Source of the DNA: Chloranthus sessilifolius
Lineage: Eukaryota > Streptophyta > Magnoliopsida > Chloranthales > Chloranthaceae
DNA length: 64,000 nucleotides
NCBI GenBank assembly: GCA_021018995.1
Contig: CM037593.1
Span: forward strand, 39,445,810 to 39,509,809
Direction: 5' to 3'
Part shown: one piece after another, positions 23,755 to 63,355 of the stretch
Layout of the letters: the number at the start of each line of letters is the position of its first letter
Numbering within the stretch: position 1 is the first letter of the stretch
Program-made: the position numbers and the translations under genes
Notes under the pieces: model-generated
Seen by the model: only the letters and a program-made list of their open reading frames with translations
The model's database searches: none
Told to the model about the DNA's origin: nothing

Positions 23755-23971
23755 AGGCGTAGATATTACATACGCCTAGCCATTTTTACCCCAGATTACT
23801 TAGGCGTATATATTATATACGCCTTCCTATTTTGGGGAAAATTTGGCCGGGCATATATAATATATACGCCCAGTATAGGTGGGACCCACCACGAGTTTCA
23901 TCTTCTCAAAACTCCCCTGATTTTGGTGAAAATTACTGTTCCTAAACTGGGCGTATATAATATATACGCCC
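23755..23971. promoter_or_regulatory. Array of four 23-nt palindromes in U3 (5' LTR of A)
   Basis: Copies at 23755-23777, 23802-23824, 23849-23871 and 23949-23971. The consensus arm is (A/G)GGCGTATATA, one central base, then the reverse complement arm. Copies 2 and 4 have perfect 11-bp arms; 1 and 3 have one or two mismatched pairs. Spacing is about 47, 47 and 100 bp. They lie 386-602 bp from the LTR start and about 280 bp or more upstream of the TATA box. The symmetry suggests a dimeric protein site or a DNA/RNA hairpin. Confidence 0.8.
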
Positions 23972-24249
23972 AACTTAGCTACAGTAACTGTCATCAGTAG
24001 CTCGAATTTCCTCCATCTAGTTTGACCCTTTGACCATCCCCTTGGCTGAGTTGGGTGTCTTGAGATTGGTTGCACCCCCTTTGAGCCTATTGCAACCCTT
24101 AAGTCACCCATGGTCTCACCCCATCATCCGCCATTGAAACCAGTTTCCCAAAACCCTAGGACCTTGAAAACCCAAAAAACCTTAGATGGGGGATTACCTA
24201 ATTGCTAAACCAATTAGCTCTTAAGCAAGCCACTAACCCATCCCTTCTC

Positions 24250-24257
24250 TATAAATA
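24250..24257 (+). promoter_or_regulatory. TATA box, 5' LTR of A
   Basis: TATAAATA in ttctctataaatagagagg, preserved in the 3' LTR (46305-46312) and in the LTRs of B and C. Confidence 0.75.
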
Positions 24258-24958
24258 GAGAGGCCTCCGTCTTCCTTAAGGGTTGGAAGAAATTGGAGGT
24301 TAAGGATTTGGAGCCCAAGAGAGAACCCTAGTGAGAGAAAGTGCACTCATTTCCCAGAATTCCAGCAAGCTTAGTTCATCTTTTCCAATCCATTTCCACC
24401 ATTACATCACTCCCTTTAGCTAAAACCTAGCCTCTAGCTTCACTCTACACCCCCTACTTTATTGAATCCTAGCATTAGAACCCATTTTCACACCATTTAA
24501 GCCATCGAAAGCACGCCAAAGCGAAGATCTTCCATGGTGCAACAAGGGCCCGTGAGCTCCGGCTCACCCCTCTCTTCCTCTACCTTCTTGGTGTCTCCTC
24601 CGTCCAAGGATTCAAGCCGTTATGCCGCCAAAATTTTGGTTTGGCTCAAAGCTTGATAGGACCGTATTGCCTTCAGGCAAGGAGAAACTCCGCCTTTTTT
24701 TATTTTTTTGGCCATAGATAGAGACCGCTACGTGCGGGTTGATCGGGTGCCTAAACCCTTCCCGATCGATAACCGAAGCCCCTACCCTAGAGCCTTTGGC
24801 AAAGACCGGTAAATCAGAGTCATATTTAGCACTTCGGTGCTCAAAATATCGATTTGAAGGTTTCCCGGGTCACCAAAAGCTCCAGGTGGCGACTCTACAT
24901 TTTAGCCAAGGCGAGCCCATCGCCGCGACAAGTTCGAGAGGATCCACGGTCGCACAGA

Positions 24959-24976
24959 TGGCGACTCTGCTGGGGA
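24959..24976 (+). other. Primer binding site of A, tRNA-Arg type
   Basis: TGGCGACTCTGCTGGGGA, 2 bases after the LTR end. This is the primer site type known for Ogre elements (tRNA-Arg). Confidence 0.85.
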
Positions 24977-26437
24977 CTTCACCGTAGCGCTTCCCCTCTT
25001 GTTGGCCTTTCCTTTTATTTTGTTATTTTACTAACCATGGCTGTTTTTTGTTCTAATTTGCTGCTATTTTTCGCTATTTTTTGTTATTTTTACTAACGTA
25101 CTCACCCCTACGATTCAGTCCTTTAAGTGCCTTAGCCGTTTGGCGGGCCTACTTGCGCCTTAAATTTCAGTTTTTACGATTCTAGTCATTTAAGCCGCCT
25201 TAGCCGTTTGGCGGGCCCGCTCGCATTTATTTTCACGTCATTTAAATTTCAGTCATTTACAAGCCTTAGCCGTTTGGCGGGCCTACTTGCGCACTTTATT
25301 TCGGTCATCATATTTCACCTTCGAACGCCGGCCCGTTGAGGCGGCACGAGTTTGTCATCCCCGACCCGATTTTGGACTTAATTTCACTCCCCTATAAAAT
25401 TCGTAATTAAACGTGAACCAACAGTATGGGGACATAATTGAATTTATTTTTGCGTTTTTGGGTAGTTTCCGGGGGGTTTAGGCACAGATACAATTTACTC
25501 GGTTCCCAGTAAGGCGGCAGCCCTAGTGGTGATGATCCTGAAAAGAACCACCCCTTCCAGTACCTGAGAAGGCGCTTGCGCCAGAGGTATATCTGTTGGG
25601 TTGCCAATTCCGATCAAGTCGTAAAACTCGCATTGGTGAGAGCGTAGAAAACCCAAATTTCAGCCGTGTATCCCTAGGAAACGGAAAGGAGGGACCCGAT
25701 AACAAACACAGCAGTCCCCGGGAGCATTTCTCCCAAGAAACCAGTTCAAAGACCCACATTTGGGCTTGCTATCCACTGTCAAACAGAACCTTTTGCGGTA
25801 GATATAATATATACCCGGTAGCTCTTGATTTACGTATATAATATAATATACGTGACCAAATCCGGATTTAAGCGGTATATAATATATATACAAATCTGCA
25901 CTTTTTTGGTCGGGCGTGCATAATATATACGCCCAGTATATACTGGGCTGCAGCAACCCGACCTGAGGCCCAATCCACCACCCCAATTCCCCGATTAGCG
26001 GTATTAGTATCCGCGGTAGCCTCCCACATTTTCTAACACCCAATATGCCCCCGCCCAATCAAAAGAAGGCGACTTCTTATTGATTTACTCCGGGGGATCG
26101 GGTCATTTGCGTGGATTCCCTCGCCTTCAATAGAACGAAAGGGTTCCCTTTCGCTTCTTCCGAAGTGTGTCGGATCCCGCCGTGGGACCTACTAAAGGTA
26201 CATATATCGCAAAGCAGGAGTTGACCACAGGCACCAGGTCATCAGTCATCTAAGCAGAGGGGAGTTAATTACAAAAAAAAAGAGAAAGAAAATCCTCATC
26301 TTCAAAAAAAAATCTACCTTCAAAAAAAGAGGAAAAAATCAATCAAAATCAAAAATCAAAAATCACAAAATTGACTTTTCAAAACCAAAAAAAAAAAATC
26401 ATCATTTTCCAAAACACACAAAGAAGAACAATCAAAA
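24977..26437 (+). other. Leader of A with tandem leader repeats
   Basis: Untranslated stretch before ORF1. Three diverged repeats of about 60-70 bp, each with ccttagccgtttggcgggcc, lie at about 25,125-25,300; element B has about four related copies in the same place (61,815-61,990). Palindromes related to the U3 set occur at 25,795-25,948. The end (26,265-26,435) is A-rich. Position just behind the primer site is where packaging or dimerisation signals sit in retro-elements, so the repeats may be such a signal (inference). Confidence 0.65.
25795..25948. promoter_or_regulatory. Palindrome cluster inside the A leader, ahead of ORF1
   Basis: Related to the U3 palindromes: 25912-25934 (GGGCGTGCATA, central base, TATACGCCC arm), preceded by weaker versions near 25,796-25,820, 25,833-25,852 and 25,872-25,891. 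It is followed directly by a perfect 18-nt palindrome GCCCAGTATATACTGGGC (25931-25948). The cluster lies about 0.5 kb before ORF1. Confidence 0.65.
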
Positions 26438-30885: not shown

Positions 30886-31992
30886 AGGGAAATCATAGGA
30901 GAAGTAGACCTTGACCTGATCCTCGGACCGCAAATCTTCACCACCCCCTTCCAAGTAATGGACATCAAGTCTTGGGCCGGCCGTGGATACATAAGCTCGG
31001 AGCAATACCATCTACCCTACACCAAAAGCTCCGATTCATTTCAGAAGGAAAAATTATCACCATCTTAGGTGAGAGCAGAGAAGACATGGGGAAGAGCGCT
31101 CTGCACATTGAGAATTCGAAAGTGCTGAATATACTGCACACAGCTGAGGACGCCAATCTCCATTGATTTAAGTACGACTTCTCGAATGTTACCCTCGAAC
31201 CAACTGAAAAGACCCCAGATAAAACTGGAGGAGGAATGGATGCAGCTGTGTTCATGGTCCACAGATGGGGCCATCAAAAAGGGAAAGGACTGGGCCCGCG
31301 CCTTCAAGGAAGAAGAGACCCCATCAAGGCCAAGGGGCAATAAACTAAATTCGACTTAGGCTACAGACCCAGAGAAGAGGAAGTCAGAGAAGCCAAGGAG
31401 AAGATGAAAGCCGCAGCAGCCGCCAAGGCCAGAGGAATCATCTTGGAAGAGGAACCTCACGCTCGCCCCCACATCCGTGAAACCTTAGCGCCGGGGTAGT
31501 AAAAATTGATCTGAATGGGGAGACGAGGGTAACCCCACATAAGCCTACTGCAATCCACCCCACCAATCCCTACATCATCCCCCCAGATTTTGAAATGGAC
31601 TTAGCCGCCCTTTGCTTGTTTGAGGAAGAAGTGCCCCGATCCACCCCTCACTTCAGCACCAACCACTTTGGGCCCCTCCTAACCGTAGAGGATAAGGTCC
31701 CGGAGGATCCCTCTATAAATATGTTGGGAGAAGAAATGCAAGAGCCTACCGATGCCGCTCCTGATCAAAGAGGTAAAGGCAGTGAGTAATCGACATCCTT
31801 GCCCCAGCTCTTGAGAGCCGCCAAATGCCATGAAAATGGCACCGACTCTCTAAAAAAAAATAACCTGTAAAAAGTAAGGTTAGCCTCTGGACCACTCTAC
31901 CTTGTATATATAGAGATCCACCTCGCCAGGGGCTGACCTCCGAAAAAATACAAAAGATCATAAAAATAGAAAAAATACCAATTCTAAAAATA
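30886..31992 (+). other. Protease-RT interval of A, site of the family intron
   Basis: Mostly short open blocks. Parts still read like the Tat protease-RT connector (EDPSINMLGEEMQEPTDAAP near 31,700). Ogre elements are known to splice an intron between protease and RT. The last about 200 bp (31,780-31,980) are A/T-richer and non-coding in look, and would be the place to look in RNA reads. Confidence 0.5.
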
Positions 31993-33786
31993 TTGTCCTT
32001 TAAAATTCCTAATAAAGTTAAAATCAATGTCGTGATACCCGTCCCACGTGAAGCCAACCCCTTCCCTGTAGAAATACAAGAAGAGGTAGGAATCAAGAGT
32101 CTGGATGAGGAAGGCCAAACCGACGAGCTCCCCAATGAGCTCCTCAAACAATTTGCCGATTTTGAGCATGGCCTTACCCCGATCGTCGAAGAGACAAAGG
32201 ACGTCAATTTGGGCACCACAGAGGCCCCCAGAATCACCAAAATTGGAACGTCGCTGTCCCCTGAGGAGAGGAAAGGTATGATAGACTTCCTTCGGTCATA
32301 CCAAGACGTCTTCGCATGGTTGTATGAAGACATGCCTGGTTTGAATACTGATCTGGTTGAGCATGAGTTGCCACTCTACCCCGATGTTAAGCTGGTGAAA
32401 CAGAAGCTGAGACGACTCCGACCCGAATGGATGTTGAAGGTGAAGGATGAGGTCATTAAACAGTATGATGCAGGTTTCCTCATGGTATCCAAGTACCCGC
32501 AGTGGCTAGCCAATATCGTCCTCGTACCAAAGAAGGATGGAAAGGTTCGAATGTGTATCGACTTCCGAAATCTCAACAAGGCGAGCCCTAAGGACGATTT
32601 CCCACTGCCACACATCGACATCTTGGTCGATAACACTGCAAAGCACGGGATGCTCTCGTTTATGGATGGATTCTCAGGATACAATCAGATAAAAATGGCA
32701 GAGGTTGATCGCGAGAAGACAGCGTTCATTACTCCCTGGGGAACCTTCTGCTACAAAGTAATGCCATTCGGGCTGAAGAATGCTGGGGTGACCTATCAAA
32801 GAGCAATGATGGCCCTGTTCCATGACATGATGCACCGAGAGATCGAAGTATATGTCGATGACATGATTGCCAAATCACCAGAAAGGGAGGACCACTTGAT
32901 AAACCTACAGAAGCTATTCGAGAGGCTGAGAAAATACAGATTGCGGTTGAATCCCCAGAAATGCGTGTTTAGCGCTATGTCCAGAAAGCTATTGGGCTTT
33001 ATTGTCAGTAGGAGAGGGATCGAGGTCGATCCGACCAAGATCAAGGCCATCACTGAGATGCCACCACCATCTACAAAGAAGGAAGTCAGAGGCTTCTTAG
33101 GCAGGATCCAGTACATCAGCCGATTCATCGCACAGTTAACTCCAATATGTGCACCAATCTTCAAGCTACTGAGAAAGGACTCACCAGTTGAGTGGAATGA
33201 TGACTGTCAGGCTACATTCGACAAGATTAAAGGTTATCTCCTGAAACCTCCAGTATTGGTACCACCCGTACCCGATAGACCCCTGATAATGTACTTGCCC
33301 ACGACTGAGTTTTCCATGGGCTGTGTGTTAGGACAACATGATGAAACGGGAAGAAGAGAGCAGGCCATCTATTACCTAAGCAATAAATTCACTGATTACG
33401 AGACGCACTATTCTCATCTGGAGAAAGCATGCCTGGCGCTCATTTGGGCTACTCAGAGACTTTTACACTACCTGTTATCCCAGGCCGTTCTACTTTTAGC
33501 ACAGATGGATCCGTTGAAGTACCTATTCGAGAAACCTGCTCTCACTGGCCGAACCGCACGTTGGCAACTACTCCTATCCAAGTTTGACATTACTTATGTC
33601 ACCCAGAAGTCGATTATGGGGCAAGCACTCGCCGATCATCTTGCTGAGAACCCTCTGCCGAACTATGAGCCTCTAAGGACCGAATTCCCCGATGAAGACA
33701 TTTTGTTCATGACCGATGAAGATACAGAGGAAACGGAAGAGCCCTGGGTAATGCACTTCGATGGGGCATTGCATGTTGAGGGCTAG
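31993..33786 (+). pseudogene. pol: Reverse transcriptase and first RNase H of A
   Basis: A 597-residue open block. RT motifs run in order: KDGKVRMCIDFRNLNKASPK, FPLPHID, FMDGFSGYNQIKMAEVDREK, TAFITPWGTFCYKVMPFGLK, and the catalytic YVDD at about residues 287-290, then LNPQKCVFS and LLGFIVSRRGIEVDP. The connection/RNase H part follows from about 33,280 (IMYLPTTEFSMGCVLGQHDE, QAIYYLSNKF, YSHLEKACLALIWATQRLLH). This is the best preserved part of A. It would copy element RNA into DNA and remove the RNA strand. Motif wording is typical of Tat/Ogre. Confidence 0.93.
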
Positions 33787-34386
33787 GGAGTTGGCGCCAT
33801 TCTTATCTCACCAAAAGGATCCCATATACCCATCTCAATCAAATTGAACTTCCCATGCACCAACAATATGGTCGAGTATGAGGCCTGTACAGCTGGTTTA
33901 CAGGCGGCTCTTGATCTAAATATAACTCACCTCAGGGTCTTTGGAGATTCACAGTTAATTATATGCCAAACCAACGGGGATTGGAAGACCAAGGATGAGA
34001 AACTGATCCCATACCATGAACATCTGGAGGATCTGATAACCTGCTTTGAGGAGGTCACCTTCTCCTATGTGCCACGAGCAAGAAATCGATTTGCTGACGC
34101 CCTGGCTACCCTGGCCTCTATGGTTGAGATTCCATATGGAGTGGTGATGAAGCCGATCATGATAGAGCAGAGGAGCAAACCGGCTTTCTGTCACCTGATC
34201 GAAGGACCTACGGAGATAGAGGATGAACCACCCTGGTTCTCGGACATCAAGAATTTCCTCGAGACCCGAACTGTCCCGGAAGGAACATCAAAGGTAGACA
34301 AACGCACCATCCAGCGATTGGCAACAAACTATGTCATCTGCGGTGATCTCCTGTATAGACGGTCTCACGACAATATTCTGCTCTGA
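33735..34386 (+). pseudogene. Second (archaeal-type) RNase H of A
   Basis: Begins with WVMHFDGA (33,745 region), then NFPCTNNMVEYEACTAGLQA, HLRVFGDSQLIICQTNGDW and SYVPRARNRFADALATLASM. The D-E-D and NxxAD pattern of a second RNase H after the usual one is the known hallmark of the Tat lineage. It is followed by the linker into integrase. Confidence 0.85.
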
Positions 34387-34416
34387 TGCCTAACCCAGAA
34401 AGAGGCGGTTGAGATC

Positions 34417-35480
34417 ATGAAGGAGATTCATGAGGGGGTCTGCGGAGCCCACGTCAACGGTCACATGCTTGCTAAGAAAATTCTAAGGCAAGGATACTTT
34501 TGGACTACTTTGGAGACCGATTGTTACAGGCACGTACAGAAGTGCTACAAATGCCGAGAGCACTCCAGCTTAATACAAGCTCCGGCCATTGACTTGCACA
34601 GCATGGCTACCCCTTGGCCGTTCGCCACCCGGGGTCTTGACATCGTCGGCAAGGTCAATCCTAAGGCTTCCAATGGACATCAATTAATCCTCGTCGCTGT
34701 GGAATACTTTACAAAATGGGTAGAGGCAGCCTCCTATACGAGCATTAAGGCTAGCCATGTTGAGAAGTTCATCAAGAACAACATCATTTGCAGATTCAGC
34801 GTACCCAAAGATATCATCACTGATAATGGCACTAATTTTGCTAATAGGCGCATCCGGGCCTTGTGTGAGCGGTTCAAGATCAAGCATCATCGTTCATCCC
34901 TGTACAGGCCTCAGACGAATGGAGCAGTAGAAGCAGCCAACAAAACTCTGATCCGCATCCTGGAGAAGATGGTAGTTACTTACAGAAATTGGAGTGAGCA
35001 GTTACCCTTCACACTTTGAGCATATAGAACATCTATCCGCACCGCAACAGGGGCAACACCATTCTCCCTTGTGTATGGGACCGAGGCCGTGCTACCCGTT
35101 GAGGTCGAAGTACCGTCACTCCGTATCCTTTTAGAATCCCATCTACCTGAAGCTGAGAGAGAAAGAGCCCGTTTTGAACAGCTAGACCTAATTGATGAGA
35201 AAAGACTCCTAGCCTTGTGCCACACTCAGGTCTATCAGAGGAGAATTGCACGTGCTTAAAATAAGCGCGTCTGTGGTCGAGACCTGAAGATAGGAGACAC
35301 TGTACTGAAGAAAAAAATTTCGTCTCTCCACGCCGATCAGGGAAGTTTAGGCCAAATTGGGAAGGACCCTACGTCATCCGAGAGGTTCTGCCAGGATACG
35401 CTGTTCGCCTCGCCACCATGGATGGAGATCACTTTCTTGAGCCCATCAACGCTGGATACCTCCGTAAGTTCTACTCGTAG
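34417..35480 (+). pseudogene. Integrase of A
   Basis: Zinc-binding HHCC region first (HEGVCGAHVNGHMLAKKILR, YRHVQKCYKCREH), then the DDE catalytic core (LDIVGKV..., FTKWVEAASYTS, ITDNGTNFANRRI, YRPQTNGAVEAANKTLIRIL) with D, D and E recognisable, then a C-terminal part (ERARFEQLDLIDEKRL, ending LEPINAGYLRKFYS). No chromodomain is seen, as expected for Tat. Broken, but clearly readable. Confidence 0.9.
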
Positions 35481-36378: not shown

Positions 36379-36658
36379 AGTAAAAAATGTCAGGAAAAGA
36401 GAGATTAGGAGAAGATCTATCCTAGCCCGCCTATTTCAGTTTGGATCTCTTAAGCCTCTTCTCCCCTTTGATGGGCCGCTCATGTTGGAAATTGGATCGG
36501 ATCCCAATCAAGTATGTCATCTCTACCGTAGCATCTGACGCATGACCAAAAGGAAAGACAGAGGGCTGAACCAATCCCAGGGCAGCTAACCTTCCCATGT
36601 TTAAAGGAAAAAACCTGTGCCTCACCAACAGGGTTCGACCATGCTCAAAATAGGACCC

Positions 36659-37573
36659 ACTGAAAGAAAATTCCAGAAAAGATAATAGATTTCCCTTTCC
36701 CATAAAAAAATCTCACCCTGTGAGGAAGAAAATTCTAAAAAAGATAATAGATTTTCCTTTCCCATAAAAAGCCTCACCCTATGAGGAAGAAATTTTCAAA
36801 AAAGATAATAGATTTCCCTTTCCCATAAAAAAACCTCACCCTGTGAGGAAGAAAATTCCAAAAAAGATAATAGATTTCCCTTTCCCATAAAAAACCTCAC
36901 CCTATGAGGAAGAAAATTCCAAAAAAGATAATAGATTTCCCTTTCCCATAAAAATCTCACCACAGCGTGAAGAAAAATCAAAAAGATAATAGATTTCCCT
37001 TTCCCATAAAAAACCTCACCCTATGAGGAAGAAAATTCCAAAAAAGATAATAGATTTCCCTTTCCCATAAAAAATCTCACCCTGTGAGGAAGAAAAATCC
37101 AAAAAAGATAATAGATTTTCCTTTCCCATAAAAAACCTCACCCTGTGAGGGAGAAAATTCCAAAAAAGATAATAGATTTCCCTTTCCCATAAAAAACCTC
37201 ACCCTGTGAGGAAGAAAATTCCAAAAAAGATAATAGATTTCTCTTTCCCATAAAAAACCTCACCCTATGAGGAGGAAAATTCCAAAAAAGATAAATGATT
37301 TCCCTTTCCCATAAAAAAACCTCACCCTGCGAGGAAGAAAATTCCAAAAAAAGATAATAGATTTCCCTTTCCCATAAAAAACCTCACCCTGTGAGGAAGA
37401 AAATTCCAAAAAGAAAATAGATTTCCCTTTGAGGAAGAAAATTCCAAAAAAAAATAGATTTCCCTTTTCCATAAAAAGCCTCACACGGCGGAGGAGAAAA
37501 TTTCAAAAAAAAAAGAAAATAGATTTCCCTTTTCCATAAAAAGCCTCACACTGTGGAGGAGAAAATTCCAAAA
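36659..37573. repeat. Tandem array of about 60-bp units, each with a CCTCAC/GTGAGG hairpin
   Basis: Roughly 14-15 copies of aaaaagataatagatttccc, then tttcccataaaaaacctcac, then cctgtgaggaagaaaattcc. Units end with a small inverted repeat (CCTCAC CCT GTGAGG, or CCTCA/TGAGG in variants). Later copies drift (cctcacactgtggagg). On the minus strand this gives repetitive ORFs without meaning. Confidence 0.9.
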
Positions 37574-38051
37574 ACAAAAAAAAAAGGGAGAAACCCCGCC
37601 AGGTGAAAAAAAAAAAAAAAAAAATCCCATAAAAAGTCTTACATTGCAGGATTACAAAAAGAAAAATAATAGCGCATGTATAGATTTCATTCCCTTTCTT
37701 TACAAGTGTTGCCCGCTGAGTGTCACGTCCCAAAAAGATAACGACATGACACACTTCCTATTTTTGCTGCTTTCTTTACAACAAAAAGCAAAACCCAAAA
37801 TGTATATAGCTGTGTATATATGAAAAAAAAAAAAAAAAAAAAAAGAACAGAAAAAGATAACCCAAAAAGGGATCTTTGATAGGGGGCTTCCCCCCCCCCC
37901 GTGTATATGATCTATGATATGTGCAGGAACAGGTCAAGGGCCGAGAGCACGCTTCAAAGCGCTAATCTCTGCAAGCAGGGAGTCCTCGCAGGCATTTCGA
38001 TCAGACATCCACCTACCATGAAGTGGACTGACTCAAAAGACCGGGACCAAG
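37574..38051. other. A-rich and homopolymer stretch, 3' flank of the antisense PMD ORF
   Basis: Long A runs (37,603-37,623; 37,825-37,845), a short C run (near 37,890) and tgtatata words. No gene. On the minus strand it is the downstream side of the ORF ending at 38052 and could hold its poly(A) signals. Confidence 0.5.
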
Positions 38052-39455
38052 TCAAGAACAACCTCGCTCGGTCAGAGTAGCTCTCACCTCTGCAATATCA
38101 GCTCTGACCCTTTCTTTCTCCAAAGTCTCGATCAAAGCCAGCCTCTCTACTGAAAGGGACTCGATCCGGGTCCGAAGCATCGCTTCCTTACATGGCCAGG
38201 GCCCAATCCCTACCACATCTACCGAAGCTGGGCTAGGAGTAGGTAATTCCTCAGATGCCAGCCAACCCTCGTAACCCGGAGAGACAACGCCCCCCGGAAC
38301 CAAGCTACACATATGCGCCGATTGGCGGGTTTCCCAGAGGGCAGCTATGCGATCAAGATCACTAAGAGAACCACGAGAGAATATCAAAGAGCACAGGGGT
38401 GGCCTCGCGGTGCACGACACATGCTGAGTATACCCGAATTGGAGGAGCACCCGAGATGGGAAGTAGTATGTGCTGCCGGTCAGCCCCAAAAGTGTGATGC
38501 CCTCACAATCCCGAGAGCGGGCAATCGGAAAGGTGTTGTCCGTCCAGGGAGGTTGCCAGGTCAGCTCTGCATCAGATAGCCACAGGCTCAGTTCCTCAAC
38601 GCTCCCACCAGGCAGTCTTGAACTCCGGATCAGAAAACCCCGAGCCACATCCCCTCTAATCAAGCAGAATCTCGACAGAGGCCCCATGATAGCCAAATGC
38701 TCTCCTAACCAGATTTGAACAAGAAGCGGGCTCCAACTAAAAATCCCAACCCTGCCCGAGGCCGCAGCATCCAAGCCTCGATACATCTCCACCAGAACCA
38801 AGTGTACCAATGAGCGACCTCCCTCCAGTTCGGTCAAAACATCACATAGCCCGAGGGAAAAGCTCTCACCCCCAGTGAAGAAGAGAACCTCAGACAGCAA
38901 ATAAAGAGCAAAGGCCTTCACATTGAAGGGATCTCGAATAGGCAACTTTCGAAGGCTCGAGTCACCGAAAAGTTCTCTCAGGAATTTCACCGAACACCTG
39001 GTGGGCCCTCCGGCGAAACATTTCTCATATCCACCCTTCTTCAAGCCAAGGACCGCGTGGACCGCCTTTGCATACCCCGGTTTGGGCACTACTTTGGCAA
39101 GGCCTCGATGCATCTTCAAGCCGGTGAGGGAGGCTAACTCTTCCAAAGTTGGGGTCAGCTCCCTAGACCCAAATTTAAAAACATGGGCCCTATGGTCCCA
39201 TGATGCCAAGGCCGCCTGTAGTAGGTTGGGCAACAGAGGAACAGCGAGGAGAGAAGAAAGACGGGACAACCCGAGGCCATTCAGAATAGCAAGCTCGCTC
39301 TCGGCCAAACTATCATGCCATTTTTGCAAAAAGCTGGGCCCCGGGTCCAAACAGGGAAGTATACCGGTCCCCGTATAAAAGCTTGGGCCCCCTTTTGAAG
39401 GCAGGTCCATCGGCGTGCAAAGAGGTTCTTTATCGGTCAATATATGGCGATGGGC
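38052..39455 (-). CDS. Antisense ORF in A: plant mobile domain (PMD)/DUF7745-like protein, large exon
   Basis: A single open block of about 465 codons antisense to A. It contains a PMD-like region: LQKWHDSLAESELAILNGLG, then SWDHRAHVFKFGSRELTPTL, EELASLTGLKMHRGL, LREL-FGDSSLRKLPIRDPFN and LVHLVLVEMYRGLDAAASGR. The end (RIESLSVERLALIETLEKER) is a predicted coiled coil and the last residues are LTERGCS. A good splice acceptor (pyrimidine tract then TAGCAG) sits just upstream at 39456-39470, so this looks like a terminal exon whose start lies further 5'. PMD proteins are known as host genes (MAIN/MAIL) and as passengers in transposons. It stays open over its full length, unlike most of A. Confidence 0.6.
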   Translation of the reverse strand, partial: AHRHILTDKEPLCTPMDLPSKGGPSFYTGTGILPCLDPGPSFLQKWHDSLAESELAILNGLGLSRLSSLLAVPLLPNLLQAALASWDHRAHVFKFGSRELTPTLEELASLTGLKMHRGLAKVVPKPGYAKAVHAVLGLKKGGYEKCFAGGPTRCSVKFLRELFGDSSLRKLPIRDPFNVKAFALYLLSEVLFFTGGESFSLGLCDVLTELEGGRSLVHLVLVEMYRGLDAAASGRVGIFSWSPLLVQIWLGEHLAIMGPLSRFCLIRGDVARGFLIRSSRLPGGSVEELSLWLSDAELTWQPPWTDNTFPIARSRDCEGITLLGLTGSTYYFPSRVLLQFGYTQHVSCTARPPLCSLIFSRGSLSDLDRIAALWETRQSAHMCSLVPGGVVSPGYEGWLASEELPTPSPASVDVVGIGPWPCKEAMLRTRIESLSVERLALIETLEKERVRADIAEVRATLTERGCS

Positions 39456-39899
39456 CTGCTAGAAAAAGAGGGGAGAGAAAGAAAATAAAAGGAGGGGCAA
39501 AACAGCCAAATCAAAGTAAAAGAGGTGCATGATCAACCTCATCATCTTCATTAGCAAGGAAAGAGGAAGGAAACCACCAAAGCAAGGGAATACCCGAATA
39601 AAACATTCATATAAACCATAAAAATTATAAACCATCCAAACAAAAAAAAAATTTGTTGTTATTACATATCCCCAAATAAAGCCAAGTCTAAACTGTTTTA
39701 TTATGTCAGGTGCCAGTTCATTCCGAGCAAGGAAAAGAGGAAGGAAACCACCAAAGCAAGGGAATACCCAAATAAAACATTCATATAAACCATAAAAATT
39801 ATAAACCATCCAAACAAAAAAAAAATTTGTTGTTATTACATATCCCCAAATAAAGCCAAGTCTAAACTGTTTTATTATGTCAAATGTGCAGGAAATAAA
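39456..39899 (-). other. Inter-exon stretch with a 173-bp-period duplication
   Basis: 39553-39707 and 39726-39882 are near-identical copies (start agcaaggaaagaggaagg). Non-coding, between the two antisense PMD blocks; behaves like an intron or intergenic spacer. Confidence 0.75.
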
Positions 39900-45424: not shown

Positions 45425-45810
45425 TGTAGACACCCAAATTCGGCCCAAGGCCCGATCAATCTGTACTTCGGGAGTGATGTTCCCCTGTGCTTCCGATGGC
45501 ACCCCCCTGAATCCTTAGGAACCTACCTAGACCAGTAGGAATCACTCGAAGACCTTTAGAGCCATTCTCCCAATCCTTAGAAGCCACCCTTACACCCTAG
45601 AATCCCTTCCTAGACCTAACTTAAACCCTTCTGGTAGTTGATGGGAGGAGAGATACAGAATTTCACACAGATCAGTACCATGGATGAGCCATATACCATT
45701 GGAAAGAGGACTTCTTTAGCTTTCCAACAAGCCAAAGATCACCTAATATGGAGCTACGGTTCAAAAGTTATGGCCGTTTTAAGTTTCACATAAAATCATG
45801 AATTTTACTC

Positions 45811-46027
45811 AGCCATAGATATTACATACGCCTAGCCATTTTTACCCCAGATTACTCAGGCGTATATATTATATACACCTTCCTATTTTGGAGAAAATTT
45901 GGTCGGGCGTATATAATATATACGCCCAGTATAGGTGGGACCCACCACGGGTTTCATCTTCTCAAAACTCTCCTGATTTTGGTGAAAATTACTGTTCCTA
46001 AACTGGGCGTATATAATATATACGCCC
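45811..46027. promoter_or_regulatory. Palindrome array, 3' LTR of A
   Basis: Copies at 45811-45833, 45858-45880, 45905-45927 and 46005-46027, the same spacing as in the 5' LTR. The last two are perfect 23-nt palindromes with GGGCGTATATA arms. Confidence 0.8.
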
Positions 46028-46304
46028 AAATGCTTAGTGAATCGCCATCGTGAGCTCGAATTTCCTCCATCTAGTTTGACCCTTTGACCATCCCCTTGGC
46101 TGAGGTGGGTGTCTTGAGATTGGTTGCACCCCCTTTGAGCTTATTGGCAACCCTTAAGTCACCCATGGTCTCACCCCATCATCCGCCATTGAAACCAGTT
46201 TCCCAAAACCCTAGGACCTTGAAAACCCAAAAAACCTTAGATGGGGGATTACCTAATTGCTAAACCAATTAGCTCTTAAGTAAGCCCCTAACCCATCCCT
46301 TCTC

Positions 46305-46312
46305 TATAAATA
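46305..46312 (+). promoter_or_regulatory. TATA box, 3' LTR of A
   Basis: TATAAATA, identical in context to 24250-24257. Confidence 0.7.
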
Positions 46313-47009
46313 GAGAGGCCTCCCTCTTCCTTAAGGGTTGGAAGAAATTGGAGGTTAAGGATTTGGAGCCCAAGAGAGAACCCTAGTGAGAGAAAGTGCA
46401 CTCATTTTCCAGAATTCCAGCAAGCTTAGTTCATCTTTTCCAATCCATTTCCACCATTAGATCACTCCCTTTAGCTAAACCTAGCCTCTAGCTTCACTCT
46501 ACACCCCTACTTTATTGAACTTTAGCATTAGAACCCATTTTCACACCATTTAAGCCATCGGAAGCACGCCAAAGCGAAGATCTTCCACGGTGCAACAAGG
46601 GCCCGTGAGCTCCGGCTCACCCCTCTCTTCCTCTACCTTCTTGGTGTCTCCTCCGTCCAAGGATTCAAGCCGTTACGCCGCCGAAATTTCGGTTTGGCTC
46701 AAAGCTTGATAGGACCGTATTGCCTTCGGGCAAGGGGAAACTCCGCCTTTTTTTATTTTTTTGGCCATAGATAGAGACCGCTACGTGCGGGTTGATCGGG
46801 TGCCTAAACCCTTCCTGATCGATAACCGAAGCCCCTACCCTAGAGCCTTTGGCTAAGATCAGTAAATCAGAGTCATATTTAGCACTTCGGTGCTCAAAAT
46901 ATCGATTTGAACATTTCTCGGGTCACCAAAAGCTCCAGTTGGAAACTCTACATTTTAGCCAAGGCGAGCCCATCGCCGCGACGGGTTCGAGAGGATCCAC
47001 GGTCGCACA

Positions 47010-47960
47010 ATCTGATAATAGGTTTAGTTCTAATAATAGGTTTAGTGACAAATTTATGTTCGACAATAGATTTAGGTTCGGTGATAATGTTGGGTCTGAT
47101 AATAGGTTTAGGTTTGAGTGCGATGATTGGCTTAGCTTTGATGATAGGTTTAATTTTTATAATAGGTTTGAGTTTGGGGCTCGGTGAGGGGATAAGTCCG
47201 ATGGTGAGTTCAGGTTTTAAGGTGGGTGTAGAGATTGGTTTGTGAGTTGGTTTTGATATCAGCTCAACGGTTGATTATGAAGTGAGTGAAAAGGGTGGTT
47301 CAGAAGTATATTTGGTAATAGATTCAGTTTCGAGATTTTGTTTTGAAGTTGGTGGGGTGACGAATTCAGTGTTAAGTTTAGGTTTTGAAATGAGTTTGGG
47401 TTCAAGAGCTTGTTCCGAGGTTGGTGGGGTGAAGTGTTTGTTGTTGAGTTCGAGTTTTAATGTCGGTGTAGGAATTGATTTAGGGACTGGTTTTGAGATT
47501 GGTGGGGCAATGTGTTTGGTTTTTGGGGTAAGTTTTGGAGTTGATTTGGAAGCGAGAGGGCTAGTGATTTTGGGGGTACATTGGATTACAGGTTTGGGTT
47601 CAGAGTTTAGTTTTATGATTGGTTTAAGTATGAATGGTGTCGTATAATACCAATTAATTAGTTCGAAAATTACTTCTAGAATCGGCACGTGAGCCTGTTT
47701 GGGGGTAGTTTGCGTCATTAGTTTAGGTGTCTATTTAGGAGGTGTGGGGTTGATTCGTTTGTTGGTAGGTTGTCGGAATCAAGGGTAGGCTGAGTTGGTT
47801 CGGGGATAAGTGCATTGAGCTTGACGATGAGTTTGGTGATGGCTGGAGTTAGTTTAGGGGTGGATTCGGTGATAGTTTGGATCTTAGTGAACTTGGTGAC
47901 TGGTTCAGGGTGAAAGGTGATTTTGCGTTTATAAGTACACGGGACAAGGTTAGTTGGTCG
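47010..47960 (-). other. Lys/Pro/Ile/Thr-rich coding-like sequence (right half)
   Basis: Continues the 18-bp repeat interrupted by A: the plus strand reads taataggtttagttctaata and so on to about 47,175. The longest minus-strand block is 47718-47275, starting MTQTTPKQAHVPILEVIFEL, with repeated KP, EP, TPPTSK and SKPV units. It has the same composition and repeat as 22101-23368. The right edge runs into Athila-like pol at about 47,960, itself a possible junction. Family unknown. Confidence 0.45.
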
Positions 47961-51770: not shown

Positions 51771-51857
51771 TATTGATCAACCACATTAAGAACAGATAGC
51801 AGAATAATGCCATAAGTGTTAATCTATGTCAAAATAAAATCAAAAGGTAGTAAGAAA

Positions 51858-52069
51858 GACGATTGTACGCAGAGACGATTCCAATCGTATGTAGACACCA
51901 ATCAAAAGAGAAATCATATTCACGATAGTGCAAAACTAAAGAAGAAAAGAAGAAATCGTATTTACAATTCCTCATAATATGCTTGATGGCTGGAGGACAC
52001 AAGCGGAGATACGATCGATCGTGAGTAAAGGAATCGTACTCAAGAAAAATGCAATCGTAATTACGATTG
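51858..52069. promoter_or_regulatory. U3 inverted ATCGTA/TACGAT motifs (LTR1)
   Basis: At least eight half-sites of (A)ATCGTA or its complement. They include the perfect 18-nt palindrome CAATCGTAATTACGATTG (52052-52069), the palindrome ACGATCGATCGT (near 52,011-52,022) and the pair ATCGTATTTACAAT. Equivalent clusters lie at 57,859-58,070 (LTR2) and 59,383-59,580 (LTR3). Confidence 0.6.
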
Positions 52070-52358
52070 TAAAAAAATAGAAGCTCCCGTTGCTGCTGAT
52101 CACGTGAGAACTACACTGCTATGCAAAGAATTAGAAGACCACTTAAATTAAAAGTCTGACAATCCACGAATCCGAGAAGAATGGCAAAATAATCTTACTG
52201 ATCTTTGCTACTGAAAATACGGAGAAAAGACCTGCACACATCTACCATCCAAAGCAAGGAAGGATAGGATTAGAAGTTTTAGTTATTTTAGGAATCTTAT
52301 TTTTTTTAGGAATTTTCTTTTGTTAGAACTCAATAATAAAAACCGACCCCTTATGATC

Positions 52359-52366
52359 TATAAATA
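52359..52366 (+). promoter_or_regulatory. TATA box, LTR1
   Basis: TATAAATA in gatctataaataagagggct, conserved at 58355-58362 and 59859-59866. Confidence 0.7.
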
Positions 52367-53101
52367 AGAGGGCTCAGCATAAGAGGAAAACTTATCGAAG
52401 GAACTCTTAGCATCAATTGACGATTGAGGTTAGGTTTTCTTCTGATCACCTTAGTTTAGAGTAGTTTAGATATCCAAGGTTTCTCGTGAGCAATTGATGA
52501 CTGTGATCAAGAGCTGGAAGATTCGAGTAGAGTATTCGTAATTTCTCATAAGCAATTGATGCCTGTGACTGAGGGATGAAAGGTCTTTTATTTGCTTTCT
52601 AGTGTAGATTTACTACTTTCATTAACTACTTTGTAAATATCTAAAAGTTCTTGATTTTAATTGACGACTAAAGTCTTAAATTTACAGATTAGTGTAACGA
52701 ATTTTATTTTCCTTCAATTTTCTTGAGTCTGATTGACGCCCAAATTTTGGGAAGATTGCTAATTAGTATAAATCTATAATGAGGGAATATTGTTTTTGAT
52801 TGACGCCCAAATTCTAGAGGACTGAGATATAGTGTAACGATATTTTAATTTTATAAGTATCCTGGATTGTGATTGACGACCATAATCTGGAAGTAGGAGG
52901 ATTTACATTTACTTTTTCTATAATTAGTTTAAACAACCATTCTTTTATTCATATTTCTCAACCTTTAAAGACAAATAGAAGTTTTCAGGAGAAATTTTGA
53001 CCTTCCTCGTGGGAACAAACCTATACTAGTGTTACAATTTCCATTGTGCACTTGCAATAGGTTAAGACAGAGTATGCGTAATAGAGCTGTCAACAAGCTT
53101 T

Positions 53102-57693: not shown

Positions 57694-59091
57694 TATGATC
57701 AGTCAAATAATTTACCATTTTATTACTCTTAACTTAATGATACTATACCCCAGTTTGCTACTAACGAGATGCTAATATACAGATATTAAGAATAGATGGC
57801 AGAATAAAGCCAAAGTGTTAATCTACGCCAAAATGAACTCAAAAGGTAGTAAGAAAGACGATCATATGCAGAGAGGATCCCAATCGTATGTGGACACCAG
57901 TCAAATGAGAAACTGTATTCACGATAGTGCAAAAATGAAAAAGAAAAGAAGAAATTACATTCACTATTCCTCATAATACTCTTGAAAGCTGGAGGACACA
58001 AAGTGGAGATACGATTGATCGTGAGTAAAGGGACCATATTGAAGAAAAATGCAATCATAATTAGGATTGTATAAAAATAAAGCTCCCGCTACTGCTGATC
58101 ACGTGAGAACTACACCGCCATGCACAAAATTATAAGACTAAAATTAGAAGTCTTGCAGTCCATGGATCTGAGAAGAATGGTAAAAGAATCTTATAGATCT
58201 CTGCTACTTAAAATATGGAGAATAGAACTGCGCACATCTACCATCCAAAGCAAGGAAGAATAGGATTAGAAGTTTTAGTTATTTTAGGAATCTTATTGTT
58301 CTTAGGAATTTTCTTTTATTAGAAATCAATAATGTAAATCGACCTCTTATGATCTATAAATAAGAGGGCTCGACATAGGAGGAAAAATTATTGAAGGAAC
58401 TCTCAGCATCAATTGACGACTGAGGTTGGGTTTTCTTCTGATCACCTTAGTTTAGAGTAGTTTAGATATCCAAGGGTTCTCAAGAGCAATTGACGACTGT
58501 GATCGAGAGCTGGAAGATTAGAGTAGAGTATCTGTAATTTCTCAGAAGCAATTGACGCCTATGACTAAGGGATGAAAGATCTTTTATTTGCTTTCAAGTT
58601 TAGATTTACTGCTTTGTAAACATCTAAAAGTTCTTGATTTTAATTGACGACTAAAGTCTTGAATTTGCAGAATAGTATAATGGTTTTTATTTTCCTTATT
58701 CAATTTTTTTTAGTTTGATTGACGCCCAAATTTTGAGAAGATTGATGATTAGTATAAATCTATATTGAGAAAATCTAGTGTTTGATTGACTCCCAAATTT
58801 TAGAGGACTGAGATATAGTGTAACGATATTTTAATTCTGTAAGCATTCAAGGACTAAAGGATTGTGATTGACGACCATAATCTGGAAGTAGGAGGATTTA
58901 GATTTACTTTTTCTGCAGTTAGTTTAAACAATCATTGTTTTATTAATATTTCTCAACCTTTAAAGACAAATAGAAGTTTTTCAGGAGAAATTTTGACCTG
59001 CTTCATGGGAGCGATCCTATACTAGTGCTGCAATTTCCATTGTGCACTTGCAATAGGTTAAGACAAAGTATGCGCAATAGAGTTGTCAATA
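57694..59091 (+). repeat. LTR2 of the Athila-like array (1398 bp)
   Basis: Starts TATGATCAGTCA after the polypurine tract and ends GTTGTCAATA. TATA box at 58355-58362. Homologous to LTR1 and LTR3. It is followed directly by internal tail sequence, not by a primer site. Confidence 0.85.
58355..58362 (+). promoter_or_regulatory. TATA box, LTR2
   Basis: TATAAATA in gatctataaataagaggg, 660 bp from the LTR start. Confidence 0.7.
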
Positions 59092-59223
59092 ATCACCTAG
59101 GGGTTTAAAGGTTTGTTGCATCTTATAAATGCAATCATGCTCCCTACGAAAATGGCATTTAAATTCTTGAATTAGTTTATCTTTCCTTGTTTGCTAGGGA
59201 CTAGTAAAGCTTAAGTTTGGGGG
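59092..59223 (+). other. Internal tail segment between LTR2 and LTR3
   Basis: Homologous to 57556-57693: it begins in the second hairpin of the structured block, keeps the third hairpin TTGCAT (59116-59121)/ATGCAA (59129-59134), and ends with the polypurine tract taagtttgggggtg. So LTR2 and LTR3 flank only this scrap of internal sequence. Confidence 0.8.
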
Positions 59224-60153
59224 TGTGATCAGTCACATAATTTTACCATTTTATCATCCTTAACTTAGTAATGCTTAGTTTGCTACTAATGAGATGCTAA
59301 TGGGCAGATATTAAGAACTGATAGTAGAATAGAGTTAAAGTGGTAATCTTTGCCAAAATAAACTCAAAATGCAGTAAGAATCACGATTGGTCGAAGATAT
59401 GACTCCAATTGTAATTGAAAGCCAGTTGTTAATGAAATCGTAATCATAAGCGAGCGCAATAGGAAGAAAAGAAGAAATCGTATTCACGATTCATCAGAAA
59501 AAGCTCAATACTAAAATAAATGATGAGCGAAGACACGATTGAACCAAAGATAGAATGAAATGTGATCGTAGTTACGATTGTATAATATTGAAGCTTTCGT
59601 TGCTACTGATCACGTGAAAGCCATGCAAAAATAGAAAGACCTCTTAAAATAGAAACCTGCTATTCCACGGATATGAGAAGATTGACGAAAGAATTCTAAG
59701 GATCACTGCTACTGAAATTACAGAGAAAAGTCCTACGCGCATCTACTATCTAAAGCAAGGAAGATTAGGAATAGAAGTTTTATTATTTTAGGAATCTTTT
59801 ATTCTTAGTAGTTTGCTTTTTATAGAACTTGAATGATGTAAACCGACCCCTTATGAGCTATAAATAAGAGGGTTCGGCATAGAGAAAAAATTATCGAAGG
59901 AATTCTCAGCATCAATTGACGACTGAGGTTGGGTTTCCTGAAGATCAACTTAGAGTAGTTTAGTTTAGTTTAGTTTAGTTTAGTTTAGTTTAGTTTAGAT
60001 ATCCAACATTTTTCAAGAGTAATTGATGACTGTGATCGGAGAGTGGAAGATTAGAGTAGACTATCTGTAGTTTCTCAGGAGCAATTGGAGGCCTGTGATT
60101 GAGAGATGAAAGATCTTTTTAGTTGCTTTCTAGTTTAGATTTATTTTTATTAC
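59224..60153 (+). repeat. LTR3 of the Athila-like array, interrupted by element B
   Basis: Starts TGTGATCAGTCA. TATA box TATAAATA at 59859-59866. A (TTTAG)n expansion lies at about 59,952-59,998, where LTR1 and LTR2 have only one or two units. Stops at the start of element B; the remainder should lie beyond B, outside the window. Confidence 0.85.
59859..59866 (+). promoter_or_regulatory. TATA box, LTR3
   Basis: TATAAATA in gagctataaataagaggg, equivalent to the boxes in LTR1 and LTR2. Confidence 0.65.
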
Positions 60154-60514
60154 TGTAGACACCTAAAATTGGCCCAAGGCTCGATTGACCCATACTTCGA
60201 GAGCGGCGTACTCCTAAGCTTTTGAAAGCACCTCCCGAACCCTTTGAACTTAACTCAAACCTTTCGAACCCTTCCCGGACCCTTCGAAATCAACCCTAAC
60301 ACTTAGAACCCTTCCCGACCCTGATTCGAACCAACCAAAATGGCGGATGGAAAGAGGAGTGAAAAGTTTACATAGACATCTACAGGATTTTAAGACTATA
60401 CCATTGGAAAGTAGAGGTTCCTAACTTTTCAATGAGCCAAGAATCGCCTGATTTCGAGTTGTACATCAAAAGTTATGGCGAAATGAAAATTATAGAAATG
60501 TGTAGGAAAATACA

Positions 60515-60694
60515 CATGCGTGCATACTATGAACGCATGAGCAATTTTTTGCAGAAATTGGCCATGCGTACATACTATGTACGTGCAGCCAATTTGGCTT
60601 TTTTCTACAGAATTAAACTCCAGAATGATCTCTAGACTTCTCAATTTTTTTAGGTAACACTGTTCCTAAGGTGTGCATACATACTATGTACGCA
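60515..60694. promoter_or_regulatory. Array of three palindromes in U3 (element B)
   Basis: Centred in 60515-60539, 60565-60585 and 60674-60694. Consensus arm TGCGTACATA, central C, reverse-complement arm TATGTACGCA. Pairing is perfect or nearly so. Offset 361-540 bp from the LTR start, the same zone as in A and C, but the sequence is different. Confidence 0.75.
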
Positions 60695-60913
60695 TAGCTT
60701 AAAATCTCAATTTTGGTCAAAAATGGCAGATTTCAGTTTTGGGGTTTGACTTGTGGATCATTCTAGAGATTGAGGTGTATCTTTTTAGGACTATTTTATG
60801 CCTCCTGACCTTAAGTTCCACCCTTTTTTCATCCAACCCATCACCCTTGATGGGCCATTACCTAATTCCTATGCCCATTAGTGAGTTAATCACTCACTAA
60901 TTGCCCTCAACTC

Positions 60914-60921
60914 TATAAATA
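60914..60921 (+). promoter_or_regulatory. TATA box of the B LTR
   Basis: TATAAATA in caactctataaatagagagc, as in element A. Confidence 0.7.
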
Positions 60922-61666
60922 GAGAGCCACCCCCCCCCCCTCTTGTTTAAGGAATTTTTAAATTCTAAGAAAAAAAACTCTAGAGAATTGCTCCCAAGCC
61001 TTATCCATTCCTAAACTCCTAAAGTTCAACCCTTAGCCCACATTACCCTCACACCATTATACAACCATTTCCATCTTTCCTAAAGCCTTGAAGCCTTAAC
61101 CTAGATCAATCACCATACCATCACTCTTAATCTTCCAAGCCTCCAAACCTTAGCAAGCTAAGACCTTCCCCTTAACCAATTTGCTTTCGAAAGCTCATCA
61201 AAATAGTCATCGACGCAAAGGTCCGACAAACAGTGCTACAAGGGCCCGAGAGCTCCGACTCTCCCATCTATTCCTCTACTTTCTTTTGATTTTCCTCTAT
61301 CCTTGAATTTGAGCCGCTACACTGTCAAAATTTCGGTGATTAAGGGGGGCTCAAATCTGATCGGAGTGCCTTCGGGCAAGGGGAAGTGCCACTCACTTTT
61401 TTTCTCTTTGTTTGCTATTTTATTTTTTACTTAGGCAATAGTAGAGACCGCTTTCGAGTGGGTCAATCAGGTGCCTAACACCTTCCCGATTGATAACCGA
61501 AATCCTTGCCTAGAGACTTTGGCGTTGACCTGTAATTTGAAGTCAAATCTAGCACTTCGGTGCCTTTGATATTGATTTTGGGTATCCCAAGATACCAAAA
61601 GCTCTTGGTGGCGACTCCATTTTGGAGCGTATCATCGCGATACCACGCGATCCACAGTTTCACAGA

Positions 61667-61684
61667 TCACGACTCCACTGGGAT
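61667..61684 (+). other. Primer binding site of B
   Basis: Two bases after the LTR end; reads TCACGACTCCACTGGGAT, a diverged form of the tRNA-Arg-type site of A. Confidence 0.65.
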
Positions 61685-62166
61685 ATTATTTTAGAGATTC
61701 TACTTGAAGTTGACCCCATCGCATGTTCTTTTTTTCTTTTGCTCACATTCTGCTTTCTTGCTACTTACCCCTAAGATTCCACATTTTTTACTTACCCCTA
61801 CGATTTCGTCTTTACACGCCTAAGCCATTTGGCGGGCCTACTTGTGTCATTTACCGCCTTAGCCGTTTGGCAATCTTACTTAATAATTTAGTTAAAATTC
61901 CCATCATTTACCATCTTAGTCATTTGGCGGGCCTACTTGATAGATTAGTTAAATTTCTGTCATTTACATTTCTTTATATTTTCTCGCCTAGTCGCTTGAC
62001 TGGCCCCATCATTTTTCTTACTGCTTGTCATATTCCACTAGTGAGCGCCAGCCCGTAGTGGCAGCACGGGACTCTCACAACCCGGTTTGAATGGTGGCGA
62101 AAGCCCCACTTATGGACTTAAGCAAACTCTCCCCAAATTTGAATGCTAAAATGAACCAAGGGACAT
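61685..62166 (+). other. Leader of B with repeats
   Basis: About four diverged copies of the cttagccgtttggcgggcct-type leader repeat at 61,815-61,995, matching the three copies in A. The downstream stretch parallels 25,330-25,435 of A. Ends at the C insertion point. Confidence 0.7.
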
Positions 62167-62875
62167 TGTGCAACCATGGGCTCTTGCGAGTCCATCGCGA
62201 TGATGTGCACGTTACTACAAATTTAGAGTAGCCACTTGGAGCTTTTGGTGTCCCGGGAAACCTAAATCAATATTAAAAGCACCGAAGTGCAAAAATATGA
62301 CTCTAATTCACAAGTCTAATGTCCAAGGCTCTTAGGTAGGGGCTTTGGTTATCAATCGGGAAGGTGTTAGGCACCTGATCAACCGGCTTGAAAGCGGTCT
62401 CTACTTATGGCCAAAAAATAAAAGTAAAAAAAAATAGCACTTCCTGTTGCCCGAAGGCACTAAGATACTATCAAGCTCTCTGAAAACACCAAAAATTCGG
62501 TGGCGTAGCGGCTTGAATCCTCGGATAAGAGAAAAGTAAAGAAGGTAGAGGAGTAGAGGGGAGAGCCGGAGCTCTCGGGCCCTTGTAGCACAGCTGTGGA
62601 GTTTTGTGTAGGTGCACTTGATGAGCTTCCGATAGCTTGAGGGGTTGGAAGATAGGTTTTAACCTCTAAGGCTTGATAGCTAAGGGCTAGGAGAAGAAGG
62701 CTAGGGGGTAGTGCTCACCTAGGCTAAGGGGATTTTGATGGAAGATGGGGTCTAAGGGATGGTTTTGAATTCTGAAATTTGTATGGGTTTGGTGCACCAA
62801 AGGGGAGAAGGAAATCTCTAATCTTTCTCTCTTTGAAAAATGTTTCAAACCTTTGTAAAGGGAGGGGTGGCGCTG

Positions 62876-62883
62876 TATTTATA
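62876..62883 (-). promoter_or_regulatory. TATA box of the C LTR
   Basis: TATAAATA on the minus strand (ttctataaatacagcgcc), equivalent to A and B. Confidence 0.65.
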
Positions 62884-63157
62884 GAAAAGGAGAGGCTTAG
62901 GAGGGTACTTAAGAGCTAATGTGATTAGCAATTAGGTAATCCAAAATCTAAGGATTTTGGGTTTTTCAAGGTCATGGATAGGTGTGAGAATGGGTTCAAT
63001 GGTAGATGATAGGGTGGGATTTCAAATGACTAGGGAGTTGCAAATAGGTTAGATGGGGTGAAACAGTCCTAAAGAACCCACCCTAAATATGGGAATGGTC
63101 AACAAGTCAAACCCCCAAAGTGAAATTCTGGCAAAAACTCATAGTTACTGTAGCTAA

Positions 63158-63355
63158 GCCTAGCGTGCATATTACACACTAGGCATATGTACAGTACCTA
63201 TGAGAAGTTCAGAGTCTGTTTGGGGCCCATTTGGCTTAGCATGTATATTATACATGCTAGGTCAAATTCCTAAAGAAAATGGCCTAGTGTGTGTATTATA
63301 CACGCTAGGCAAAATTCCTTCAGAAATGACCTAGCATGTATATTATACACGCTAG
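63158..63355. promoter_or_regulatory. Array of four palindromes in U3 (element C)
   Basis: Copies at 63158-63184, 63235-63261, 63283-63309 and 63331-63355. Consensus arm CTAGC(A/G)TGTATA, one central base, reverse-complement arm. The second has a perfect 23-nt core. Offset about 350-550 bp from the LTR start. Spacing of the inner copies is about 48 bp, as in A. Confidence 0.8.

Follow-up and report, generated by a model that had tools for sequence, protein, structure and literature searches.

What reads the short palindromes that stand in arrays in the U3 (unique 3′) regions of three families of long terminal repeats (LTRs) at a single plant locus? The locus, a 64,000-nucleotide stretch of Chloranthus sessilifolius contig CM037593.1 (hereafter, the window), contains element A, an LTR retrotransposon of 23.6 kb, together with one LTR each of two further families, B and C. 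The palindrome arrays are real and lie above chance; their sites share one skeleton, differ from family to family in the remaining letters, and recur upstream of an antisense gene of element A that encodes a protein with a plant mobile domain (PMD). From the placement of the sites and the PMD frames, both of which are seen, we infer that the arrays are operators read by an element-encoded regulator, probably the PMD protein, and we give this reading about an even chance of being right.

Palindrome arrays in three LTR families

The LTRs and the arrays within them are the following.

23369-24956, plus strand: 5′ LTR of element A
45425-47009, plus strand: 3′ LTR of element A
60154-61664, plus strand: LTR of family B (end approximate, set by a sequence resembling a primer-binding site, PBS)
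62167-63706, minus strand: LTR of family C
23755-23971: palindrome array in the 5′ LTR of A (sites 23755-23777, 23802-23824, 23849-23871 and 23949-23971)
45811-46027: palindrome array in the 3′ LTR of A (sites 45811-45833, decayed, 45858-45880, 45905-45927 and 46005-46027)
60516-60695: palindrome array in B (sites 60516-60538, 60564-60586 and 60673-60695)
63158-63354: palindrome array in C (sites 63332-63354, 63285-63307, 63237-63259 and approximately 63158-63182, the last with a 2-nt deletion)

Each LTR opens with TGTAGACACC (at 23369 and 45425 in A, 60154 in B and 63706, minus strand, in C) and carries a TATA box, CTATAAATA (at 24249, 46304, 60913 and 62884, minus strand, respectively). A preliminary description of this locus had given the coordinates of the arrays correctly and had placed them 350 to 600 bp from the LTR start, with sites often 47 to 48 bp apart, and both statements hold: the measured range is 352 to 602 bp (386 to 602 bp in A, 362 to 541 bp in B, and 352 to 548 bp in C), and the center-to-center spacings, in order of transcription, are 47, 47, and 100 bp in A, 48 and 109 bp in B, and 47, 48, and 77 bp in C. 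The U3 sites are 23 nt long with an odd center, and all lie 218 to 494 bp upstream of the TATA box. "Near-perfect," as the palindromes had been called, suits family A, where the sites pair at 9, 11, 10, and 11 of 11 arm positions in the 5′ LTR and at 7, 10, 11, and 11 in the 3′ LTR, but those of B (10, 8, and 9) and C (10, 9, and 11, with 8 of 11 for the fourth site once it is re-centered around its deletion) are less perfect.

Between LTR start and TATA box, palindromes pairing at 9 or more of the 11 arm positions were counted and compared with 300 dinucleotide shuffles. The 5′ LTR of A holds 4 against a shuffle mean of 0.25 (reached in 0 of 300 shuffles) and the 3′ LTR holds 3 against 0.29 (1 of 300); C holds 3 against 0.27 (1 of 300), and B holds 3 against 0.26 (1 of 300), a count that includes a palindrome outside the array (60878-60900) and excludes the middle site, with its 8 of 11 pairs. 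Over the whole window, 77 palindromes of 20 to 21 nt with at most one mismatch were found, against 5.75 in 20 shuffles; two TA runs account for 56 of them, as overlapping matches, and of the 21 that are left, 14 fall in the arrays described here.

A shared skeleton with family-specific letters

All sites fit a single skeleton, GCGT-R-Y-ATA-N-TAT-R-Y-ACGC. Aligned on their centers, the arms, GGGCGTATATA in A, ATGCGTACATA in B and TAGC(G/A)TGTATA in C, fit NNGCGTRYATA-N-TATRYACGCNN, and the window contains 17 matches to GCGTRYATANTATRYACGC with at most three mismatches, against 0.02 expected, all of them within the A, B, and C elements. Fourteen are U3 sites (4 of 4 in the 5′ LTR of A, 3 of 4 in its 3′ LTR, 3 of 3 in B, and 4 of 4 in C, one of the last with three mismatches). 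Since all arms share this skeleton, the earlier statement that the sequence is not conserved was too strong; its other half, that the arms differ, stands, as each family has letters of its own.

The family letters differ at the center and at mirrored arm positions 11, 10, 5, and 4, and the consensus arms differ in the same way on the left and on the right: at 11, 10, and 4 between A and B, at 11, 10, and 5 between A and C, and at 11, 10, 5, and 4 between B and C. Arm position 7 (G/A) was rejected as a family difference; because each of the three families has sites with GCGT, and GCAT, ATGC, and ACAC are seen as well, variation there looks more like CpG decay. For this reason, the C consensus is written with GCGT; with GCAT instead, position 7 would differ too, on both arms.

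How closely these letters follow the family was measured by matching sites by position across families through their U3 flanks. The fourth site of C, on account of its 2-nt deletion, was excluded from the consensus, the covariation analysis, and the main motif identity figures; the 3′ LTR sites of A, being near copies of those in the 5′ LTR, were excluded from consensus, covariation, and motif identity, and three degenerate sites in the leader of A were left out of the site comparisons. Within a family, different sites share a motif identity of 0.844 (12 pairs); across families, the figure is 0.620 when the sites correspond in position (8 pairs) and 0.614 when they do not (25 pairs). The flanks follow position instead, with identities of 0.525 within a family, 0.620 for the same site across families, and 0.525 for different sites across families. 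Entering the fourth C site as it stands, in its shifted register, changes the motif figures to 0.68, 0.51, and 0.53. Clustering of motifs by family was equaled in 1 of 5,000 label permutations, and in A and B the fourth site has a mean identity of 0.84 to the other sites of its family, despite a gap of 100 to 109 bp to the nearest of them. With U3 identities outside the array of 0.593 (A-B), 0.653 (A-C), and 0.685 (B-C), the motifs have therefore diverged about as fast as their surroundings, yet in a mirrored and concerted fashion. Change that is concerted across a family suggests one reader per family.

Symmetry has also been kept through change. Of the 143 cells that 13 sites provide, 93.7% pair when G-U is accepted, against a shuffled mean of 82.8; 19 cells changed on both sides, against 5.5, and the covariation score was 0.397, against 0.164, none of these three values being matched in 500 shuffles.

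Sites outside the LTRs and their candidate readers

The arrays do lie in U3, as first described, but the sites are not confined to it, and the three remaining skeleton matches are found at 43393-43463 (2 of 2 sites, upstream of an antisense gene of A) and 25795-25950 (1 of 4 sites, in the leader of A). These sites and the antisense genes are listed below.

43393-43463: two A-type palindromes upstream of antisense PMD gene 1 (sites 43393-43415 and 43441-43463)
41271-43330, minus strand: antisense gene 1, start and first exons (splice sites predicted from sequence)
38052-39458, minus strand: antisense gene 2, an open frame of 468 codons with a PMD (PF10536, E 7.5e-14)
25795-25950: leader array of A (25912-25934 fits the skeleton with 0 mismatches)
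25795-25817, 25832-25853 (even center), and 25872-25894: degenerate leader sites of A

The antisense-promoter region has two palindromes, against 0.15 in shuffles (reached in 3 of 300), and the leader has four, against 0.56 (2 of 300), a count that includes the unrelated palindrome 26134-26155 as well as 25929-25950, which overlaps another. The well-fitting leader site runs at its end into a perfect even palindrome, GCCCAGTATATACTGGGC, at 25931-25948. The two sites before gene 1 have identities of 0.83 to 0.96 to the U3 sites of A, 0.65 to 0.74 to those of B, and 0.61 to 0.70 to C sites 1 to 3. They belong to a module (43380-43463) homologous to U3 sites 1 and 2 (80% over 84 columns), in which the palindromes keep 41 of 46 letters and the flanks 33 of 53 relative to the 5′ LTR, and 38 of 46 and 34 of 53, respectively, relative to the 3′ LTR.

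Reading on along the minus strand from these sites, one meets first a run rich in pyrimidines, then a likely splice donor and, after a long intron, an acceptor with an ATG. The transcript of gene 1 would start at about 43330-43300; the predicted exon 1 ends at 43181, exon 2 spans 42333-42147, with the ATG at 42332 directly after the acceptor, and exon 3 begins at 42047, exons 2 and 3 sharing one frame. The PMD (PF10536) matches at 41897-41271 (E 4.6e-14), beyond an in-frame stop in exon 3. The likely leader intron is dense in AC/GT-rich repeats at 42430-42883, in steps of about 36 to 40 or 70 bp. In gene 2, the PMD match covers profile positions 17 to 294, and the protein also matches DUF7745 (E 2.7e-06). 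A sequence comparison of the gene 2 protein with the PDB gave no significant match (best E, 0.25), and none was found in viral_contigs, not a plant collection and so uninformative for plants. A coiled coil is conceivable for the C-terminal helix of the gene 2 protein (residues 428 to 464), where the most favorable of seven registers puts hydrophobic residues at 9 of 13 a/d positions, but the resemblance is too weak to rely on. Upstream of gene 2, two 149-bp direct repeats, 99% alike, lie at 39560-39882.

On the reading that we prefer, the palindromes would be operator or enhancer sites for a sequence-specific DNA-binding regulator whose specificity shifted from family to family. A palindrome with 11-bp arms is a usual footprint of a dimer, and binding by a dimer is likely. 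The same sites stand at the LTR promoter and before a gene of the element, which argues for an element-encoded reader with autoregulation, and we lean somewhat towards such a reader; its most likely source would be the element itself, through the antisense gene for the PMD protein. Bound to the arrays ahead of the LTR promoter and to the site pair ahead of its own gene, that protein would activate, or shield from silencing, the genomic transcript and the PMD gene alike.

Several observations weigh against this reading. After insertion, the palindromes of A drift like the rest of U3: set side by side, its two LTRs show changes at 4 of 92 palindrome positions and at 42 of 808 in the remainder of the aligned stretch, with 0 paired changes, so that in this one copy the palindromes decay just as their flanks do and without pairing, the very pattern that the preliminary description had set against its own proposal of co-evolution with a family-specific dimeric factor. 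The comparison measures postinsertion drift in one dead copy and therefore leaves function in an active lineage undecided; the proposal itself retains the letters that follow the family whatever the flanks and the recurrence of A sites before the PMD gene. The likeness among C sites 1 to 3 is partly tandem duplication, because their flanks are shared too (0.74 upstream between C2 and C3 and 0.63 downstream between C1 and C2). Two covariation measures were unexceptional (5 both-side-changed pairs against 3.5, reached in 70 of 500 shuffles, and 12 pair types against 10.5, reached in 107 of 500), and 13 sites from three families amount to few independent events. Gene 1 in this copy has an in-frame stop in exon 3, its Pfam match spans only profile positions 23 to 168 of 347, and the three pieces downstream in the gene have no PMD match in Pfam. 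Just upstream of gene 2 (39460-39560), no palindrome related to the arrays was found, the best there being an unrelated one with 8 of 11 pairs. AlphaFold2, run without relatives, gave an unusable fold for the gene 2 protein (mean predicted local distance difference test score, 37.3). Element A is the only PMD-bearing element visible in the window, and any PMD genes of B and C would lie outside it. Finally, one paper counts the PMD among domains of unknown function (PMC8616336), and contact of the PMD proteins MAIN and MAIL1 with DNA is put forward as a hypothesis (PMC7156037, PMC9899485).

The strongest competing explanation has one or more dimeric transcription factors of the host drive the LTR promoter, without any element-encoded reader, and the PMD gene borrow an enhancer module. 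The distance of the sites from the TATA box is an ordinary one for a plant enhancer, and the module before gene 1, which looks copied from U3, would suit any activator; however, each family has its own version at all of its sites, and three specificities on one skeleton in close relatives would each need a different host factor, which makes this explanation rather unlikely.

The arrays might also be functionless by-products of local duplication or gene conversion from one palindromic seed, as the 47- to 48-bp spacing, the flanks common to C sites 1 to 3, the copied module, and the equal decay of palindromes and U3 after insertion would suggest. Against this, the flanks of A and B sites are unlike within a family (0.525 overall, equal to unrelated sites), so that conversion tracts would have to end at the palindromes, and symmetry persists in three families whose U3 regions are only 59 to 69% alike outside the array; we regard this explanation as improbable. 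Selection on U3 for its secondary structure, as a cruciform in DNA or a hairpin in RNA (for example, at a transcript 3′ end or as a small-RNA source), which the preliminary description had also offered, is very improbable, for although pairing was kept through changes on both sides, pairing alone would not give the separate sites of a family the same arms (0.844, against 0.620 for the same position in other families), does not explain the same sites upstream of the antisense gene, and would, with single-base centers, require tight loops.

Element A and known systems

The remaining coding region of element A is listed as one feature.

31864-35019, plus strand: reverse transcriptase, ribonuclease H (RNase H), second RNase H, and integrase of element A (Pfam matches)

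In order, these are reverse transcriptase with RNase H (31864-33786), the second RNase H (33787-34386; RVT_3, E 2.1e-21), and integrase (34387-35019); a gag match is weak and under the curated cutoff (E 8e-04). The LTR pair of A is 95.1% identical over 1,604 aligned columns, including 14 bp preceding the LTR. Just past site 4 of the array (46028-46050), the two LTRs differ at many positions; the 5′ version resembles C, so the stretch in the 3′ LTR may have been replaced. Element A is inserted in an 18-bp minisatellite (22950-23368 and 47005-47194), flanked by GTCTG and ATCTG, a possible target-site duplication of 5 bp that has changed at one position, and a tandem array of units of about 61 to 62 bp (36629-37575) separates its integrase from the antisense genes. 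Neither the reverse transcriptase nor the palindrome of A had matches in viral_contigs or genome_contigs, non-plant collections that are uninformative for plants.

The C LTR would be the 3′ LTR of an element running past the window edge, its upstream flank resembling A; it begins about 500 bp from the end of the B LTR and probably sits within the B leader. Elsewhere in the window, direct repeats at 51814-53096 and 57813-59092, about 6 kb apart and 86 to 94% alike in the blocks listed, are possibly the LTRs of another element, with partial third copies near 59584-59968, and large inverted repeats at 855-7409 and 8169-12229 (75 to 93% in the blocks listed) are apparently related elements in face-to-face orientation; skeleton matches are absent from both sets.

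At the PBS position, 2 bp past the LTR, element A has TGGCGACTCTGCTGGGGAC, which may fit tRNA-Arg. A PBS complementary to tRNA-Arg is given as a trait of Ogre elements (PMC9289625). In domain order and PMD frames, element A is consistent with the Ogre branch of the Tat lineage. A second RNase H, lodged between the first one and integrase, is a mark of Ogre and Retand, and a PMD in an extra open reading frame is reported in 57% of Ogre elements, which, like A, are also very large (PMC6317226). In the open-licence literature available to us, we found no description of U3 palindrome arrays in Ogre, Tat, or PMD-bearing elements. The antisense genes of Retand lie between pol and the 3′ LTR and encode TRP28, for which DNA binding and regulation have been proposed (PMC11963269); the genes of A are likewise antisense but carry a PMD in place of the TRP28 domain, and Transposase_28 (PF04195) is not among the Pfam matches of its six antisense pieces. 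In the available part of the Retand paper, there are no LTR palindromes, and "palindrom" occurs only in a cited title.

In Arabidopsis, PMD proteins have effects on gene expression and on the silencing of transposons, and MAIN and MAIL1 are tied to the DOWN promoter motif and to silencing of transposable elements (PMC7156037, PMC9899485); these, however, are host genes, whereas the PMD described here is borne by an element. The DOWN motif in the form given for the MORC1 promoter, CATGCAGTTT, has no exact match on either strand of the window, variants not having been searched, and a link between it and the palindromes was rejected on that ground.

A closer parallel is found in the VANDAL (Mutator-like) transposons of Arabidopsis, whose element-encoded VANC protein binds repeated motifs in vivo and in vitro; as in our LTRs, these are short, noncoding, and different between families (PMC5735166). 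VANDAL elements are DNA transposons, whereas here an LTR retrotransposon is concerned, with the PMD protein as the candidate; the VANC21 motif, YAGTATTAY, stands in arrays of a single orientation, and the main text does not contain "palindrom"; and binding and demethylation were demonstrated for VANC (PMC5735166), whereas binding of our sites by a PMD protein is proposed. From VANC (PMC5735166, PMC12844716) and the published suggestion that transposable elements may make PMD proteins to counter silencing (PMC8616336), we infer an activating or anti-silencing direction of regulation rather than repression. More tentatively, and at somewhat less than an even chance, an Ogre PMD protein and family-specific palindromic operators at the LTR and antisense promoters would form a self-reinforcing anti-silencing circuit, with co-evolution of protein and site in each family; such a circuit would be to LTR retrotransposons what VANC is to VANDAL, and MAIN and MAIL1 might have had this function ancestrally.

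What is already known is the PMD in Ogre, the antisense genes of Tat elements, and the co-evolution of protein and motif in VANDAL; palindromic sites common to an LTR and an antisense PMD gene appear to be new. A later study is reported to describe modules of PMD protein and DNA motif that oppose Polycomb silencing. A family-specific palindrome standing both at the LTR promoter and before the PMD gene makes a candidate target on which binding can be tested directly, and if the reading is right, LTR retrotransposons run sequence-specific regulators of their own, as VANDAL transposons do.

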